Assembly (NCBI GenBank): GCA_017436865.1
Contig: JAFSCH010000028.1
Location: 1 to 42,897 of the forward strand
Direction: 5' to 3'
Length of the DNA: 42,897 nucleotides
From: Lachnospiraceae bacterium
GTDB lineage: Bacteria > Bacillota > Clostridia > Lachnospirales > Lachnospiraceae
Positions 6,644 through 13,043 of this stretch are shown in pieces. Position numbers and translations under genes: made by a program. The notes beneath the pieces are model-generated. The model ran no database searches. It was not told the origin of the DNA and worked only from the letters and a program-made list of their open reading frames with translations. Within the stretch, counting starts at the first letter, position 1, and every line of letters starts with the position of its first letter.

Positions 6644-6691
6644 CTATGCTCTCCCTTTGTTATATTCAAATATCTAGTTTTCTATACCATC

Positions 6692-6718
6692 TTAATTATT
6701 GAGTACCTTCATAATTAC
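6692..6718 (+). repeat. 27-base inverted repeat, copy
   Basis: It matches the perfect copies at 14020 and 17962 at 25 of 27 positions (TTAATTAT ... ATAATTAC arms). It lies in the 475-base gap between the exonuclease and hydrolase genes. That gap also has a small hairpin near 6767-6779 (AGTAAT-C-ATTACT) and the REP-like doublet at 6983-7059. I see no gene there. Confidence 0.75.
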
Positions 6719-6982
6719 AAGGCAAAATTCTATTTGAATCATAACACAAACATATATTGCATACAAGTAATCATTACTGTTTACTTCATTTCGCTCACTT
6801 GTTCCTTGTTCCAGCAACAAACACTTTTTTTATGATACTGCATCTTAACGAGATAAACACCTACCATGACTACTATAATTCCTACTATTTCTTTCTTTAT
6901 TTATAACTGTCCTCTTTTCTTTCATTGCTATCTTAACAGAAATTTAGCCATGTTTCTTGTAAAATATGATCATCTACAAGAA

Positions 6983-7059
6983 TAGCATGACAAAGGGACG
7001 TTCCTTTTGTCATGCTACTGAGGTCAAAATCCCAGTATCATGACAAAAGAAACGTCCCC
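6983..7059. repeat. REP-like doublet with competing hairpins
   Basis: TAGCATGACAAA (6983-6994) pairs with TTTGTCATGCTA (7006-7017). The core GGGACGTTCCTTTTGTCATG (6995-7014) is also complementary, with a few mismatches, to CATGACAAAAGAAACGTCCC near 7039-7058. So two alternative hairpins are possible. GGGACGTT...TTTTGTC motifs of this kind resemble REP elements linked to Y1-type REP transposases in Firmicutes. No transposase is in the window, so this would be a non-autonomous copy. Confidence 0.6.
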
Positions 7060-7119
7060 AAACAATTAATCGCTATATTTATACAAATAACCATCGATTG
7101 TTTTGAGAAGACCTTATTT

Positions 7120-8007
7120 TTAATGACTCTCCACCCAGCTTGCTATTTCCCGCATAAAAGGCTCCGGATGAATAAAATAACTGTTATGCGTATCGTTAAT
7201 TTCTACGAGCTTTTTTTCACATTGTAGTGACGCATAGTAACAATCAAAATACTCTTTCGGAAAATAACGGTCATGCAATGTTTTAAATACAAGGGTTGGA
7301 CATGTAATCTCCATTTTAAGCATACTCTCTGCACCAAGCATGCATTCTAATATCTGTACCAAGCTATTGATTTTTAAGTCAAAGAAACTCGAATCACGAT
7401 ATGCTATCATTGACTCATAAAATTCATTATCTGATTCTGCCTGAAATCCCTTTGCCTTTGGCGGCTTAAATGCCATCGTAAAATCAGGTCGTTTCTTTGT
7501 AATCAGGCGACAAACAAATAACATCGGTTTTGCCAGAAAAGTGGGTACTCCGAGAGGTTTTGTATTTCCGTAGATTCCACAGGCAAACTGTGAAAAGCTT
7601 TTAAATCCGGGATTTATACCCAAATAGTACTGTGCTATAATTGCCCCCGCTCCTGTATAGCCTAATAAATGAATCTCACTTGAATAATTTTCACAGATAT
7701 ACTGATAGACCGCATCTATGTTTGCAGTCATATTCTCTAATGTAAACTCCTTTGTCTCTCCTCCACATTCCCCTTCTCCCGGAGCGTAATCCATCGTAAA
7801 CACATTAAAAGAATACTCCCTTGCCAACTGTTCATAGCATTCATAACAGTTTTTTACTGCTGTAACAGGTGTGTGGATAAGCATAATATTTTTACAATCT
7901 TTATCGGAAATATGCTGAAAAATATGTACTTTGGAATATCCAAACACATAGACATCTTCCCATCCGTCTTTTTTCATTTTTTCATCATTTAATGGTTGAA
8001 TTTTCAT
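7120..8007 (-). CDS. Alpha/beta hydrolase fold protein with Thr at the nucleophile position
   Basis: This 295-residue protein has an alpha/beta-hydrolase layout: an early strand with IMLIHTP, the elbow LLGYTGAGAI (about 114-123), a late Asp in TLHDRYFP and a late His in NDTHNSYF. The elbow has Thr118 where serine normally sits, so either Thr acts as nucleophile or the enzyme has lost hydrolase activity. There is no signal peptide, so it is cytoplasmic. The TetR-family gene ends 25 bases upstream on the same strand, which implies one operon and a regulator acting on it. The substrate is unknown. It may be an esterase-like or thioesterase-like protein. Confidence 0.75.
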   Translation of the reverse strand: MKIQPLNDEKMKKDGWEDVYVFGYSKVHIFQHISDKDCKNIMLIHTPVTAVKNCYECYEQLAREYSFNVFTMDYAPGEGECGGETKEFTLENMTANIDAVYQYICENYSSEIHLLGYTGAGAIIAQYYLGINPGFKSFSQFACGIYGNTKPLGVPTFLAKPMLFVCRLITKKRPDFTMAFKPPKAKGFQAESDNEFYESMIAYRDSSFFDLKINSLVQILECMLGAESMLKMEITCPTLVFKTLHDRYFPKEYFDCYYASLQCEKKLVEINDTHNSYFIHPEPFMREIASWVESH

Positions 8008-8032
8008 TGTACCTCATTTCTGAGCAACTCTG

Positions 8033-8611
8033 TTATTCGATAATTAGGTGCTCTGATAATGCTCTTAGAATAATCTTCATATTTTTAATATCCTGCGCTT
8101 CTTTTATATATGGTAACTGCAGGAATTGTAACTGTATGATTCTCATTGTCTGATGTAAATCATAGCGAAACTGTATTCCCGAATTCTCAATTGTTTCAAA
8201 TAATTTCAAATCTCGTATGCTGTTTTCTTCAACACAAGCTTTGGGAGCTTTTTCTTCGATACGCTGCCATACCCTTGCATCTATTTCCATCATGAGTGGA
8301 TTTTCCATGAATTGTCGTGCTGCATAACAAAGTGCATGAAAAAAGCGATCCACCTGTCCTTCATTTTCTAAATTACTAAGTATCTTTCTTATGTTTTCAA
8401 ATATTTCTTCCTGTGTTCTATTGTTAATAACCATATAGAGATGTTCCTTGTTCTCAAAGAAATGATAAAAGGTTCCTTTCGCAATCCCGGCTTCTAGTGC
8501 TACTGCCTCCGCTGTCACTTCATAGAAACCCTTTTCATTAAACATTTCTTTTCCCTTTTCCAACAAGGTTTTATAAATTCTTTCTCTCTCTTTACTTGAA
8601 AATTTTGGCAT
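8033..8611 (-). CDS. TetR/AcrR-family transcriptional regulator
   Basis: The first 50 residues form a TetR helix-turn-helix (MFNEKGFYEVTAEAVALEAG, then IAKGTFYHFFENKEHLY). The remaining 140 residues are a helical ligand/dimer domain with no recognisable family. Length 192 is typical. Such proteins repress nearby genes until a small ligand binds. The hydrolase gene follows directly and remnants of SnoaL-like and flavodoxin genes precede it, so the original target may have been a small redox or detoxification module. Confidence 0.9.
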   Translation of the reverse strand: MPKFSSKERERIYKTLLEKGKEMFNEKGFYEVTAEAVALEAGIAKGTFYHFFENKEHLYMVINNRTQEEIFENIRKILSNLENEGQVDRFFHALCYAARQFMENPLMMEIDARVWQRIEEKAPKACVEENSIRDLKLFETIENSGIQFRYDLHQTMRIIQLQFLQLPYIKEAQDIKNMKIILRALSEHLIIE

Positions 8612-8640
8612 ATTCTTCTCTTTTATATGACTTTCTATTT

Positions 8641-8898
8641 TTATTTGGTCATATAAAACATATCACATCTCTTTATACATGTCAACAGCCGATAGCTATC
8701 GGCTGCAGCCTGGTTCTCGGCAAAGATCCAAACCTCACATATCTTTCCACTCTCCATGCGAAAGTAATCAATACCAGGCATATTCAATTTCAATCGCAAA
8801 CTGAACATACTCCTTGGTATTTCAAAAGATTTCAATCTCTCCGTTTCAATCTCAACGACCTTTTCCTCTGTTACAGCTAGTTCTTTCTTTTCTGCCAT
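8641..8898 (-). pseudogene. Probable SnoaL/NTF2-like remnant
   Basis: The ATG at 8898 has a good ribosome site (AAAGGAAG, six bases upstream), so it can be translated as 85 residues. The in-frame upstream extension to 8955 lies inside a terminator hairpin and is rejected. Residues about 45-60 read PGIDYFRMESGKICEVWIF, like the C-terminal strand of SnoaL-like polyketide-cyclase/NTF2 proteins, which usually have about 130 residues. The N-terminal half of that fold is missing. I read it as a truncated gene that may still be translated. It ends 30 bases upstream of the TetR gene. Confidence 0.45.
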
Positions 8899-8920
8899 AG
8901 TCAACTTCCTTTCCCTGAAC

Positions 8921-8972
8921 GAAAAAAGGTCCGTCCAGAATAGATTATTTTTCATCTAATCTGAACGGACTC
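8921..8972 (-). terminator. Terminator or attenuator upstream of the SnoaL-like remnant
   Basis: On minus a long imperfect stem starts GAGTCCGTTCAGATTAGAT and closes with ATCTATTCTGGACGGAC, then a T-run (8927-8922). It lies 25 bases before the start at 8898. It could end the flavodoxin-like transcript or act as a leader attenuator. Confidence 0.75.
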
Positions 8973-9067
8973 TTACGACAGGCCTTTTCTGGCAAGACTA
9001 CAGTGTTTTCCTTTCCATCTTTCCTTGCTTTTACAACCTAAACCTCATCCTACTTTGTACTTAATCC

Positions 9068-9202
9068 CTATGGCTGACAGTTTTGAAAAATATGGATTGG
9101 TGACAAGAAATCATTTTCGCTGACTATCTCTTCCACAATTTTCTTCGTATTTCCATGATGCACAGATGCATACACAATAGCTGTTTTCAAATAATTCGTC
9201 AT
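9068..9202 (-). pseudogene. Flavodoxin N-terminal fragment
   Basis: This is a 44-codon reading frame starting at the ATG at 9202, preceded by AAAGG. Residues 6-22 read KTAIVYASVHHGNTKKI, the first strand and FMN-phosphate loop of flavodoxins (S-x-x-x-G-N-T). The frame then loses similarity and stops at 9068, while normal flavodoxins have about 140-170 residues. This is a truncated gene. The surrounding 350 bases (8973-9306) hold no other gene. Confidence 0.65.
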
Positions 9203-9306
9203 CCAATTTCTACCTTTCTATGAGCCACATGATATTTATTTACTCCGTTTTACATATTCCCTGTTTTCACCTCTGATAAGTGCATAGGAAATACAATTTG
9301 CTAATA

Positions 9307-10497
9307 TCATCCTTGCTTTTGATTAAGCTGCGAAAAGACTTTCTTTTCCATCTCAAGAATATCTCCAACCGCTGATCTAACAGCTTCTTCTACAATTTTA
9401 TTAATGCCTTCTTCATCCGATACATCATACCATTTTGTAGTAAAAATTCTTTTGTATGTAAAGTCTGACTTTCTTTTGTCATTTGGTTTTAATATATCTG
9501 TGATTGCCTGCATCTTATCCATTGAATCTTGTGGAACATTTCTTCCTGCAAGTTCAAATATTCCATAAAATCTATCTCCACGCATATTAAACCAATAAGA
9601 ATAAATATTTGTGGATCCCCATGAACTGATTGGTTCATCTAATAGCGGAAGATAATTATCCATCGATTCTGTTCTAAAATTATTTCCCCAACTATCATCA
9701 TAAATTATTTTTCCTTCATCAGCTAGACTGCACAATGTATCTCTAATAGCATCAGATACTTGAGTTTTTCCGTCTTTTCTATTCTCAAAAATAAGGTCTA
9801 ACGCTTTCTTATGCTTATTGTATATTTTATTGCAAATATCAATTAACTGCTGATCTTCCACAATATCTCTCCTAACAATATCAATATAATTCTTAATCAT
9901 CAAATCTACATCGGGTAATATTTTTATTCGCGCATTTACTTCTTCTAATACCTCCACAACATCATTGTACGAAAGTATATCCCAATTTTCTACGTCACTC
10001 GGCGTCTCGCCATCTGGTGTTAAGAACACACATAATCTACTATATTCTGGATATTCTTGTTCTAAAATTTCTCTATACCGGTTAAGCTGATTGCTATGCT
10101 CATGAGAACCAACCTTATTCTCTATCGCGATAACTGTTTTTTCATCCGAAGATGTCAAAAGGATGTCTATATTTTTCCATTCTCGCATGACCGAAAAGCT
10201 ATATAGATCCATCAACAATACATTAAATACATCATATCGTCCATCTGAATCATTCTCTACCAGTCTTTGAAGAATCCCCCTCAAAAATGTATCTCCTAAC
10301 CCATGATTTTCATTAGGATTTAAAAGCCACCCCAACATATTACTATGCCGTATTTCTGCTCTTGTTATTTTCAATACATCAAATAAATTAAATTTTCCTG
10401 TCCATGGAAGCAATTCATCTAAGCATCCTATGTCTAGTAAAAAGTTCTGCAAAGCTTCTTCATTTGTCAATTCTTTTCTACCCATATACACACCCAT
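9307..10497 (-). CDS. PD-(D/E)XK nuclease-family protein (PDDEXK_4-like)
   Basis: About 396 residues. The N-terminal region has AEIRHSNMLGWLLNP (Glu near 49), then KNIDILL with Asp about 111, then VIAIENKVG with the E-x-K pair at about 126-128, followed by a conserved HSNQLNRYRE. This is the order of the PD-(D/E)XK nuclease core as seen in PDDEXK_4 proteins, which are common in defence regions. The C-terminal 200 residues have an unassigned domain rich in aromatic residues. The frame extends to a TTG at 10503. The first ATG is at 10497 and another at 10485, and none has a strong ribosome site. It is the last gene of a five-gene minus-strand operon with three other nuclease-like genes. Confidence 0.8.
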   Translation of the reverse strand: MGVYMGRKELTNEEALQNFLLDIGCLDELLPWTGKFNLFDVLKITRAEIRHSNMLGWLLNPNENHGLGDTFLRGILQRLVENDSDGRYDVFNVLLMDLYSFSVMREWKNIDILLTSSDEKTVIAIENKVGSHEHSNQLNRYREILEQEYPEYSRLCVFLTPDGETPSDVENWDILSYNDVVEVLEEVNARIKILPDVDLMIKNYIDIVRRDIVEDQQLIDICNKIYNKHKKALDLIFENRKDGKTQVSDAIRDTLCSLADEGKIIYDDSWGNNFRTESMDNYLPLLDEPISSWGSTNIYSYWFNMRGDRFYGIFELAGRNVPQDSMDKMQAITDILKPNDKRKSDFTYKRIFTTKWYDVSDEEGINKIVEEAVRSAVGDILEMEKKVFSQLNQKQG

Positions 10498-10515
10498 TTC
10501 CAATAAGCTATCATA

Positions 10516-10677
10516 TTACACTATCTTCATTATGCAACAGATAACCGCCAATCCCAAAATAACCAATACTAATCCTTTTATGGCATCTTTTCCATTTATC
10601 GTATTATGCGGCTGATTCATTTCTTCTTCAATAATCAAATCTTCTTTATCAATCTTTCCATTATGATTGTAATCCAT
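10516..10677 (-). CDS. 53-residue single-pass membrane protein with EF-hand loop
   Basis: The start is ATG at 10677, with AGGA about nine bases upstream; the stop is at 10516. The N-terminus contains DYNHNGKIDKED, which fits a 12-residue EF-hand calcium loop (acidic or Asn at positions 1, 3, 5 and 9, Gly at 6, Ile at 8; position 12 is Asp rather than the usual Glu). An acidic IIEEEM segment, a linker and a hydrophobic helix (GLVLVILGLAVICCIM, about 35-50) follow. It lies 11 bases after the DUF6998-like gene and 18 bases before the PD-(D/E)XK gene, on the same strand. The spacing argues that it is a real member of the operon. I know no named family for it. Confidence 0.6.
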   Translation of the reverse strand: MDYNHNGKIDKEDLIIEEEMNQPHNTINGKDAIKGLVLVILGLAVICCIMKIV

Positions 10678-10688
10678 AACACAAAATC

Positions 10689-11195
10689 CTATTTCCTATT
10701 TTTATATTTAACATCCATTTTCTCAATATGATTTATCTGTGTAATTCGCCTGCATTCATCAACAGCCTTGTCCAATTCCATTAGTTTATTTACTCGCATA
10801 TGTTTGTTATTATGACTGTCTCTTTTGCTTGCACTTTCCCAAGGTAATTTTCCCGGACCATTATATACTTCATAGATATTTCCATTTCTATTTAGATAGA
10901 GAACAATCAAATAATCCGGTTCATGATTGATTACAATATTATCCTGCTGTGAAATCTTAATCTGCACCTTTTTCCCATCAACTTCACCATCGTGTATTTC
11001 TGTCGAAGCCGCATACAGTTCAATTCCATAATAGTACGCAGCCATTACTTCTCCTATGCTCCCTACTAAATGACCATCAAGAGTAAAATGTCTTCCTGGA
11101 AATTCCGCTTCAAGTTGTGCAACAATCTCTACCAGTCTTTGAACCTGGTGTTTAATCATGTTCATTTTTTCATCTGTATATTTTATCTTCTCCAT
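10689..11195 (-). CDS. DUF6998-like protein, probable PD-(D/E)XK nuclease fold
   Basis: This 168-residue protein has FPGRHFTLDGHLVGSIGE near residues 32-49 and then HDGEVDGKKVQIK. Glu49, Asp69 and Gln78-x-Lys80 line up with a PD-(D/E)XK-type core in which Gln replaces the third acidic residue. EVYNGPG and a Trp follow, as in the DUF6998 family often found with restriction genes; I assign that family from memory. Its start overlaps the end of the vsr gene by 26 bases, a sign of translational coupling. It may cleave DNA or recognise it for a partner nuclease. Confidence 0.7.
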   Translation of the reverse strand: MEKIKYTDEKMNMIKHQVQRLVEIVAQLEAEFPGRHFTLDGHLVGSIGEVMAAYYYGIELYAASTEIHDGEVDGKKVQIKISQQDNIVINHEPDYLIVLYLNRNGNIYEVYNGPGKLPWESASKRDSHNNKHMRVNKLMELDKAVDECRRITQINHIEKMDVKYKNRK

Positions 11196-11661
11196 CTCTA
11201 CTTACATCTTCATCAAAAGAAATTTTGTCTTCTCCCATTTTTATATCAAAAATTGCTTCCTCTATCACTTTAATACATTCATCAGTGTTTTTCTTAATAT
11301 CCTTTCCCCAAAAACGAATAACTGTCCATCCAAGAAACAGGAGTTTCTTATTTATCTCATCATCACGCTCTCGATTTCTTGATATTTTACAAATCCAATA
11401 TTCGCTATTGTTACTTTTCTCTAGTCGTGACTTTAATACTTCCCAGTCTTTTCCATGAAAAAATTCGCCATCACAAAAAATTGCTATTTTATACTTGGTA
11501 ATAACAATATCTGGTTTCCCTGGTAAGTCTTTATAATTTTTTCTGTATCGGTATCCCTTTTGCCAAAGAGCTTTTCTAAGTAATACTTCAATCTTCGTAT
11601 CACTTGACTTTATATTTTGCATATTCTTATGACGTTGTTCCTTTGTTAAATCATTAGACAT
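11170..11661 (-). CDS. vsr: Very-short-patch repair endonuclease-like protein (Vsr family)
   Basis: Vsr enzymes nick at T:G mismatches created by deamination of 5-methylcytosine. The start at 11661 has GGAG six bases upstream; the in-frame upstream ATG at 11700 lies inside the HNH gene. The protein shows the N-terminal RHKNMQNIKSSDTKIE, then GYRYRKNYKDLPGKPDIV with the catalytic Asp at about 51, and IFCDGEFFHG with His at about 69. The His that precedes CFWH in E. coli Vsr is replaced here by Asp-Gly-Glu. The family is normally beside a C5-cytosine methyltransferase, which is absent here. Length 163 is close to the usual 140-150. It overlaps the DUF6998-like gene and follows the HNH gene by one base. 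Confidence 0.85.
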   Translation of the reverse strand: MSNDLTKEQRHKNMQNIKSSDTKIEVLLRKALWQKGYRYRKNYKDLPGKPDIVITKYKIAIFCDGEFFHGKDWEVLKSRLEKSNNSEYWICKISRNRERDDEINKKLLFLGWTVIRFWGKDIKKNTDECIKVIEEAIFDIKMGEDKISFDEDVSRDGEDKIYR

Positions 11662-11662
11662 C

Positions 11663-12439
11663 TCACGCTCCTTTGAAAATAACGTCGTTATGGTACTCAA
11701 TAAATTTTTCCCCTGGCAAAAACTTATCCGGAAGAATTATTTCCTTTCCATTATAATAAGAAAACCACTCTCTTGTTTTATCATCCATGGCCACATCTTT
11801 TATAAACCTTGAATTAACAATACGATAGTTCTTATCAATAGTAATAAAGCCTCTGTCGAATGCTTTATCATGCATTGCATTCAGGCATAACCCATTACTA
11901 GGGTTTGTTCTCTCTGTTTTAACATCGCTTACACTCCATGGCTTAATATGACTTGCAACAAGTAATTCCCTATTTTTCAATCCAGTTATACAACAAGCAT
12001 TTCCATATGACATAAGCACAGACATTCTGAAAAAATACTGCCCAATCCTTACTTTCGTCTGCTGCTCTTTGTCTATTCCCGAAGGTATGTGATCTAACTG
12101 CAACTCTGGCAACAGATTTTCTACAGATGAGTTTTTCATCTGTGCTAACAAGCTCTGTGCAACAAATGATAATTCTTCAATATTCTCAGAGAATTCATCG
12201 TATATTATCTTATCCAGTTTGCTTGTATGCGATAACCCTGACACATTCCTCGCCTGCAACTCCGGATCATAATGTGCCAGATTGGACATCTTGTACGCAA
12301 CAGCATCCGGTGTTCTATTTATTATTTGAGCAAGCTGAATTATTTCTTGATTGCTTTTTCCTATTTTAGAAAATGGAATACGTGTATATAAATCCATTGC
12401 TAAAATAGTCTCTTCTCTTGTCCAATTCCTTCTAGCCAT
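11663..12439 (-). CDS. HNH endonuclease (HNH_2-like) with N-terminal SANT-like HTH
   Basis: This 258-residue protein begins NWTREETILAMDLYTRIPF and then TPDAVAYKMSNLAHYDPE, a Myb/SANT-like helical DNA-binding domain. Its C-terminal half has ACCITGLKNRELLVASHIKPW, NPSNGLCLNAMHDKAFDRG, the Cys-containing HNH_2 type core with His164, Asn182 or 187 and His190. Such proteins act as restriction enzymes. It is the first gene of the minus-strand operon, 240 bases from tRNA-Arg. Its stop is TGA with the vsr start one base beyond. There is no methyltransferase next to it. Confidence 0.88.
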   Translation of the reverse strand: MARRNWTREETILAMDLYTRIPFSKIGKSNQEIIQLAQIINRTPDAVAYKMSNLAHYDPELQARNVSGLSHTSKLDKIIYDEFSENIEELSFVAQSLLAQMKNSSVENLLPELQLDHIPSGIDKEQQTKVRIGQYFFRMSVLMSYGNACCITGLKNRELLVASHIKPWSVSDVKTERTNPSNGLCLNAMHDKAFDRGFITIDKNYRIVNSRFIKDVAMDDKTREWFSYYNGKEIILPDKFLPGEKFIEYHNDVIFKGA

Positions 12440-12536
12440 AATCCCACCACCTTAACTAATATTATATAACTTCAATCGCTGTTTGTGTAGAAATATCAGA
12501 TTTTTTTTGCTGCTTTTCGCGTATGTCAGAATTCCT

Positions 12537-12620
12537 GGTGGATTTTTCTTTCTTTCAAACGGGTGGATTTTTTACATTTTGGGTGGAAGAAATCATCATT
12601 TTGTTTCAAATTCAGGTGGT
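12537..12620 (+). repeat. Spaced GGTGGA motifs upstream of the nuclease operon
   Basis: GGTGGA occurs at 12537-12542, 12562-12567 and 12582-12587, and GGTGGT at 12615-12620, most followed by T-runs. The motif lies 100-180 bases upstream of the HNH start and could be an operator cluster for the operon. Spacing is irregular, so this is weak. Confidence 0.3.
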
Positions 12621-12683
12621 TTTTTCTACCCTACAAATAAAAAAGCAGCAACAATTTCTTCAATCATTACTGCTCAATACAAA

Positions 12684-12755
12684 TGTTCCCAGCGGGAATC
12701 GAACCCACAACTACAGCTTAGGAGGCTATTGTTATATCCATTTAACTATGAGAAC
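12684..12755 (-). tRNA. tRNA-Arg (anticodon CCT)
   Basis: On minus the acceptor stem GTTCTCA (12755-12749) pairs with TGGGAAC (12691-12685), with one G-T wobble. The D stem is GTTA/TAAC, the anticodon stem ATAGC/GCTGT, the loop CTCCTAA gives anticodon CCT, and the T arm is GTGGG TTCGATT CCCGC. A is the discriminator at 12684. All arms close. It neighbours the nuclease operon and a partial duplicate (12928-12971). Confidence 0.92.
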
Positions 12756-12927
12756 AAATGCCGTATTTTCAGGCTTTTCAGCCTCTTTTGGTACCGGCAA
12801 CCATCTTTTATAATTCAATCACTTTTGTGATGAACAAGCTTTTTCTTATCTTATCAGCTCTCTTATAATCGGCCTCCGATTACTACCAAAGCATCGCCCA
12901 TTATCATAAATAGGGTTCTGTCATGAC

Positions 12928-12971
12928 GCAACCTTAGGAGGGGGCTGTTATATCCATTTAACTAAGGAAAC
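12928..12971 (-). pseudogene. Broken partial copy of tRNA-Arg
   Basis: It shares TAGTTAAATGGATATAACA (19 of 19) and the anticodon-loop segment CTCCTAAG with tRNA-Arg, at the same spacing. The five bases of the anticodon stem between them are changed so the stem no longer pairs, and there is no T arm or acceptor 3' half. It is a non-functional 5' half located about 215 bases away in the same orientation. The remaining sequence in 12756-13043 shows no gene. Confidence 0.75.
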
Positions 12972-13043
12972 ACGTACAATTCTTATTCACATAACATCGT
13001 ACTTATTTTATTATATCAGAAGTTTTGTTGATTTCAATAGCTT

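Follow-up and report, generated by a model that had tools for sequence, protein, structure and literature searches.

A Vsr gene is usually taken as a sign of cytosine methylation, and an adjoining HNH_2 gene as half of a restriction system. The locus described here raises the question of what such a pair does where no DNA methyltransferase is found beside it. It lies in a stretch of 42,897 nucleotides (nt) from contig JAFSCH010000028.1 of a gut bacterium of the Lachnospiraceae (GenBank assembly GCA_017436865.1), referred to below as the window, in which five minus-strand genes form an operon-like group at 9307-12439. Judged by sequence comparison, the HNH and Vsr genes are the only selected, travelling unit among the five. 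In our estimate there is a roughly even chance that they represent a detached restriction cassette, protected in trans and gathered together with independent nucleases.

All five open reading frames (ORFs) of the group are present and uninterrupted, and their families are as follows, with lengths in amino acids (aa):

11663 to 12439, minus strand: HNH_2 endonuclease of 258 aa with an N-terminal part of unknown type (Pfam HNH_2, 2.4e-13)
11170 to 11661, minus strand: Vsr-family nuclease of 163 aa counted from the ATG (Pfam Vsr, 3.4e-31)
10689 to 11195, minus strand: DUF6998 protein of 168 aa, predicted PD-(D/E)XK nuclease (Pfam, 2.8e-48)
10516 to 10677, minus strand: ORF of 53 aa with a single EF-hand-like loop and a hydrophobic tail
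9307 to 10497, minus strand: PDDEXK_4 nuclease of 396 aa from the ATG, PADLOC candidate PDC-S26 (Pfam, 2e-34)
12461 to 12489, minus strand: promoter-like site TACACA-17-TATAAT upstream of HNH, a consensus match only

The ORF list, Pfam and the sequence itself bear out the original prediction of five minus-strand genes with these families and this spacing. A single base separates the HNH stop codon (11665-11663) from the ATG of Vsr at 11661, the 26 nt at 11170-11195 are shared by Vsr and DUF6998, and the EF-hand-like ORF is bordered by gaps of 11 nt (10678-10688) towards DUF6998 and, if PDDEXK_4 begins at the ATG at 10497, of 18 nt (10498-10515) on its other side. The promoter-like site ends 21 nt upstream of HNH; such sites are no commoner than in shuffles (22 against 18.6, standard deviation 3.7). 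No terminator-like site was found on the minus strand within the operon.

What sets the first two genes apart is a comparison with G086, a genome from another genus of the same family, whose 3-kb contig gave a single BLASTN match to window positions 9000-13000:

11230 to 12520, minus strand: HNH-Vsr cassette and its promoter-like region, matching G086 (L018) over 1296 nt at 90.0% identity

This match begins 31 nt ahead of the promoter-like site, stops 60 nt short of the Vsr end and holds HNH and Vsr only, none of the other three operon genes; in G086 it is flanked upstream by a ParB-type gene and downstream by a gene without a Pfam family. At a synonymous divergence (dS) of 0.5-0.6, HNH has a ratio of nonsynonymous to synonymous divergence (dN/dS) of 0.050 and Vsr one of 0.147, and by this measure purifying selection acts on both genes. 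A search of 397 genomes turned up six other HNH relatives of nearly full length, and in five of them Vsr lies near HNH, no more than 6 bp away in three and roughly 0.5-0.7 kb away in two. A C5-methyltransferase is encoded within 10 kb in four of the six; in the remaining two, G086 and G054, the contig stops 0.8 and 1.1 kb beyond Vsr. Literature searches on Vsr, HNH, EVE-HNH and solitary restriction endonucleases (REases) brought up no account of a travelling HNH-Vsr cassette.

The predicted active sites are largely preserved. In HNH, residues H164, N182, N187, H190 and D191 are invariant in 16 aligned sequences, so that the catalytic motif appears intact, and the length of the protein matches that of its relatives. 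The Vsr protein scores 140.3 bits with TIGR00632, above the curated cut-off of 97.85. Alignment with the Escherichia coli enzyme (1cw0) shows E25, D51 and H69 kept as E38, D64 and H82, the H64 position occupied by D77, and an ambiguous counterpart for D97. The structural zinc of E. coli Vsr is bound by C66, H71, C73 and C117; in the window Vsr, C66 corresponds to E79 and the other three positions carry neither Cys nor His. In its available text, PMC12907096 names E25, D51, H64, H69 and D97 (E. coli numbering) as the catalytic set and describes an aspartate at the His64 place in functional Neisseria Vsr proteins as well. A restriction-modification system that decayed after losing its methyltransferase, leaving the nucleases as silent or inactive remnants, would fit the C5 linkage that is the norm in the HNH clade (below), a flavodoxin-like 44-aa fragment downstream of the operon (Pfam E 0.12, under the cut-off) and the missing 3' half of the tRNA described below. 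It has to contend with five open frames, with the retention of the HNH and most Vsr catalytic positions, with dN/dS values since divergence from G086 of 0.05 (HNH) and 0.15 (Vsr) and with a promoter-like region kept in the shared stretch, and we consider it distinctly unlikely. In its simple form, which the original prediction had offered as the plain alternative, decay was rejected on the purifying selection acting on HNH and Vsr and on their largely kept catalytic residues.

The absence of a methyltransferase was examined at the level of the window and of the assembly. For 35 of the 44 window ORFs of at least 100 aa, Pfam returned methyltransferases of tRNA/rRNA type only and no DNA methyltransferase; the nine ORFs left out were serS and eight shorter, mostly overlapping ORFs. 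A PF00145 profile search of the genome likewise gave no match on the operon's contig, and the stretch in which no DNA methyltransferase was found extends for 9.3 kb in one direction and 30 kb in the other. The term methyltransferase-free, used in the original prediction, thus describes the locus correctly and the assembly wrongly: two C5-methyltransferases are encoded elsewhere, on contigs C109 and C127. Given these two genes, it is possible that the modification is supplied from elsewhere. The C109 enzyme was rejected as a proven partner of HNH-Vsr on the lack of a close relative in 12 other genomes, and stays a candidate. On C127 (1-18000, L016), the C5-methyltransferase stands with several long genes in an apparent large defence locus, of which only the methyltransferase was put to Pfam.

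How far the two families depend on a neighbouring methyltransferase was assessed by surveying their relatives. For HNH, 118 loci were confirmed and the best 80 kept, the C5-methyltransferase profile being made from few sequences and iterated on the same loci; five loci were omitted from the tree for ORF length. The window HNH falls in a clostridial clade of 27 rows (support 97/95), whose other 26 members comprise 21 C5-linked, three short and two unlinked loci. Within this clade, HNH proteins of this kind are normally encoded near a C5-methyltransferase, and here the expectation that HNH_2 accompanies such an enzyme holds. Across the tree, 27 of 63 callable rows show no C5-methyltransferase although their stretches extend 7 kb to either side. 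The GHKL label that we gave to L072 and L073 is our own reading; Pfam assigned no family to the L073 protein.

For Vsr, the corresponding claim that a C5-methyltransferase normally accompanies it was supported, with such a gene at 42 of the 49 loci (the window among them) that have flanks of at least 7 kb on both sides. Family genomes with a Vsr match numbered 83 of 397, 80 of them over the cut-off. Among 86 stretches scanned, seven gave no Vsr, six of these having a Vsr match listed at the same place; the Vsr ORFs of those six stretches, and likewise that of L075, were dropped by the greedy ORF picker. A GEF(F/W)H-type motif occurs in 59 of 80 Vsr ORFs, and a C5-methyltransferase was present in the stretch for 59 of the 80 read in context. 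The latter count is more fairly 61 of 80, since the frames of L250 and L288, counted as unlinked and not among the 49, also hold a PF00145 match; with C5-methyltransferase and Vsr matches in one open frame, these two are possible fusions. The seven unlinked loci of the 49 include the window, L290 (a 59-aa fragment) and L227, whose contig also carries a C5-methyltransferase at a distance of about 13 kb. An orphan Vsr 68% identical to that of the window (BLAST) stands amid unrelated genes in G196, a genome of the same genus (L077, 9202-9660) that has a C5-methyltransferase elsewhere. Vsr relatives with 68-76% identity also occur in Blautia and Dorea phages (PV036443, PV036415, PV036437 and PV036434; three of the four were inspected), near one end of the record.

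The other three genes of the operon behave differently from the pair. DUF6998, PDDEXK_4 and the EF-hand-like ORF were found at none of the 80 HNH loci (the best 80 of 118), and in the Vsr survey they were seen in the window alone. Relatives of DUF6998 occur in six of 397 genomes, five over the cut-off and the window's own genome included, and on seven plasmid records; in an IMG/VR record, a 79% relative is flanked by a macrodomain gene and a gene for a Tn916-type integrase. Six DUF6998 sequences share invariant E49, D69 and QIK 78-80 (Q78, K80), and together with a weak profile match to the REase Eco15I (0.0086) this motif suggests a PD-(D/E)XK nuclease; comparing the profiles of DUF6998 and Vsr gave no match. 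In two genera the DUF6998 gene directly adjoins a LEM-3-like GIY-YIG gene (L011, 4332-5661; L014, 8283-10211). PDDEXK_4 matches the PDC-S26 model PDLC04972 over nearly its full length (3.4e-124, residues 12-394 of 398). The PADLOC model is silent on HNH or Vsr, and no tie to them was found. Only two of 368 genomes have a PDDEXK_4 match, the window's own and one 27% identical, and on this count PDDEXK_4 was rejected as a partner of HNH. Its relatives on 30 plasmid and three phage records are all below 60% identity, and a 53% relative has a phage minor-tail gene next to it on the other strand. Relatives of DUF6998 and PDDEXK_4 thus occur singly, on mobile DNA; no paper on PDC-S26 or DUF6998 was found.

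For the 53-aa ORF, whose hydrophobic tail we read as a transmembrane stretch, the EF-hand match (0.004, 17.0 bits) lies under the Pfam cut-off of 25.9 and covers one loop. None of 39 candidate stretches was confirmed as a relative, the genus gave only two weak matches, both with internal stops, and a pattern search of 294 records returned only one unlike ORF of 37 aa. A 61-aa ORF of L014, about 5.8 kb from the DUF6998 gene, aligns over 31 residues at 35% identity with an E value of 1.7e-4 computed against five sequences only, and we read the match as probably confined to the hydrophobic part, without the EF loop. The ORF therefore has no convincing relative. The original prediction had proposed that the five genes form a self-contained defence system in which the EF-hand membrane peptide restrains the nucleases. 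The tight same-strand spacing and the promoter-like site before the first gene are what such a system would display. Yet no linkage of the five genes, which had been set as a test of the proposal, was found among the loci examined, the G086 homology is limited to HNH-Vsr, and nothing supports control by the EF-hand-like ORF. We rejected both the five-gene system and EF-hand control on these grounds, and regard the proposal as very improbable.

The operon lies on a segment that interrupts a tRNA gene:

6658 to 12931: inserted segment bearing the operon, replacing 76 bp of the empty site (BLASTN against L114 of G409)
12932 to 12972, minus strand: 5' remnant of the original tRNA-Arg(CCT), with the break in the anticodon loop (BLASTN against the empty site, and a repeat)
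12683 to 12756, minus strand: complete tRNA-Arg(CCT) carried by the segment (ARAGORN), with a terminator-like site directly after it

Homology to the empty site of G409, a genome of the same genus, ends at 12932 within tRNA-Arg and restarts at 6657, so that 6274 bp stand in the window against 76 bp at the corresponding place. The gene order in G409 is serS, DUF3881, tRNA-Arg(CCT), an RNase_T-type exonuclease and a chemotaxis receptor, with 93-99% protein identity to the window for serS (presumably; the label is our own naming), DUF3881 and the exonuclease. In G418 and G397 tRNA-Arg is likewise intact and followed by the same exonuclease gene, which brings the empty site to three genomes of the genus. 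A search that tolerated up to three mismatches recovered the 3' half of the original tRNA neither in the window nor in the genome. The tRNA-Arg(CCT) carried by the segment is divergent from the broken original (12683-12972). The site is probably an insertion hotspot, because G412 (L115) has the same tRNA break, followed by a start that resembles the segment by eye before its contig ends, and G398 carries a phage-integrase gene 187 bp from tRNA-Arg(CCT) beside the same DUF3881 region. In the wider surroundings, dnaA (31029) is about 18.6 kb away from the HNH start, and the same region includes parAB, mnmE, mnmG, a RecF/SMC-type gene and gyrAB. A search of the operon DNA against plasmids gave no match.

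Taken together, the operon would group nuclease genes that are mobile independently of one another and probably act against phages, on a segment inserted at tRNA-Arg(CCT). The HNH-Vsr cassette may have descended from a C5-methyltransferase restriction locus and now move without the methyltransferase. HNH would be the nuclease of a restriction-modification system whose two halves have come apart, cleaving incoming DNA at sites that a C5-methyltransferase encoded elsewhere covers in the host. Vsr would repair the T:G mismatches that arise by deamination of 5-methylcytosine (5mC), and DUF6998 and PDDEXK_4 would act as separate accessory nucleases within the same putative transcript. The locus resembles the solitary or separated REases, endonucleases without a linked methyltransferase, of PMC3488263 (Ershova et al. 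2012): as far as the available text of that paper describes them, the likeness extends to a full-length endonuclease with no intact methyltransferase found nearby, to candidate methyltransferases elsewhere in the genome and to a tie to mobile DNA. It differs in that a two-gene HNH-Vsr cassette travels here, joined to other nuclease genes; the term Vsr is absent from the main text of that paper. A closer parallel for Vsr is Caulobacter VsrA, which is unlinked from its partner methyltransferase ScmA and shares with the window protein both this separation and the aspartate at E. coli His64, although in the available text of PMC12907096 the partner of VsrA is established and no HNH partner is named. 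A Type II restriction-modification system has a linked methyltransferase, which was not found in the window.

Several observations weigh against a detached cassette protected in trans. The contamination listed for the assembly is 7.68%, so that C109 and C127 may not both belong to it, and no close match to the C109 methyltransferase was found in 12 other genomes searched, among them G086, which carries the nearest relative of the cassette. We infer from the tRNA break that the segment is a mobile element; no integrase was seen among the segment ORFs put to Pfam. For the 27 unlinked HNH loci, a search of 26 genomes gave a PF00145 match in 17 and none in nine. Five of the nine are metagenome-assembled genomes by title, of completeness not given, so that absence there is weak; four are named strains by title (L171, L179, L185 and L197). 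L197, a Chryseobacterium, has Vsr 374 bp from HNH in a genome without a PF00145 match. At L171, a gene 102 bp from HNH has an amino-methyltransferase-like motif (pattern match) and may, in our reading, be a Type I modification gene. Where Vsr occurs with no separate C5-methyltransferase ORF in the stretch, 13 of 16 genomes have a PF00145 match, in G085 and G269 within the Vsr frame itself and in G295 as short pieces only; several of the 16 have short flanks. This search took in 16 of 20 other genomes as well as G409 and G412, leaving out G315, G071, G124 and G260. The three without a match are G191, with a Vsr fragment, and G387 and G171, in which Vsr is present and PF00145 absent. Such HNH and Vsr genomes speak against any general rule that every HNH-Vsr pair needs 5mC protection. 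HNH is also found beside other REases, and because these adjoin it, it may not be the main cutter: L164, L188, L190 and L081, which were chosen by hand, combine HNH, an HpaII-type REase and Vsr, and the stretch fetched for each shows no C5-methyltransferase. The HNH ORF of L081 is short, and its genome, G387, shows no C5-methyltransferase. The window locus is like these clusters in holding HNH and Vsr without a C5-methyltransferase in the stretch, and unlike them in having no HpaII-type gene.

Some of these observations favour an explanation in which HNH-Vsr has no need of a methyltransferase, HNH being specific for modified or foreign DNA or dependent on a partner, and the Vsr-like protein serving as a co-nuclease. 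The 27 unlinked tree rows, the nine match-less genomes and the four chosen loci, in which HNH may be an accessory nuclease, all point this way. The only clear solved relative of the HNH domain is 6yex (1.3e-18; the next at 0.048), that is VcaM4I, described in the available text of PMC7897488 as a modification-dependent EVE-HNH enzyme. The phosphorothioate-dependent family NF045808 gives a score of 67.3 against a cut-off of 180, over residues 73-256 only. However, similarity to VcaM4I is limited to the HNH domain, and Pfam reports HNH_2 alone, so that the N-terminal part shows no known fused sensor (EVE, SRA or SBD) of the kind that marks Type IV modification-dependent HNH enzymes. Moreover, a nearby C5-methyltransferase is the rule in the clade to which this HNH belongs. 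We consider such independence fairly unlikely. In its more specific form, the two nucleases would make up a defence module that needs no methyltransferase and spreads as a 1.3-kb cassette, with Vsr as co-nuclease and with the host safe because HNH acts solely on modified or foreign DNA. This form is suggested by the unlinked HNH and Vsr genomes without a PF00145 match, and it appears quite unlikely.

The significance of the locus lies in what a detached cassette and its alternatives would each imply. A selected HNH-Vsr pair without a methyltransferase, together with relatives in genomes where no C5-methyltransferase was detected, makes 5mC dependence of these families testable. Independence of 5mC would call for a reinterpretation of many Vsr genes now annotated as mismatch repair; dependence would make the locus a clean case of a separated restriction system built by horizontal transfer.

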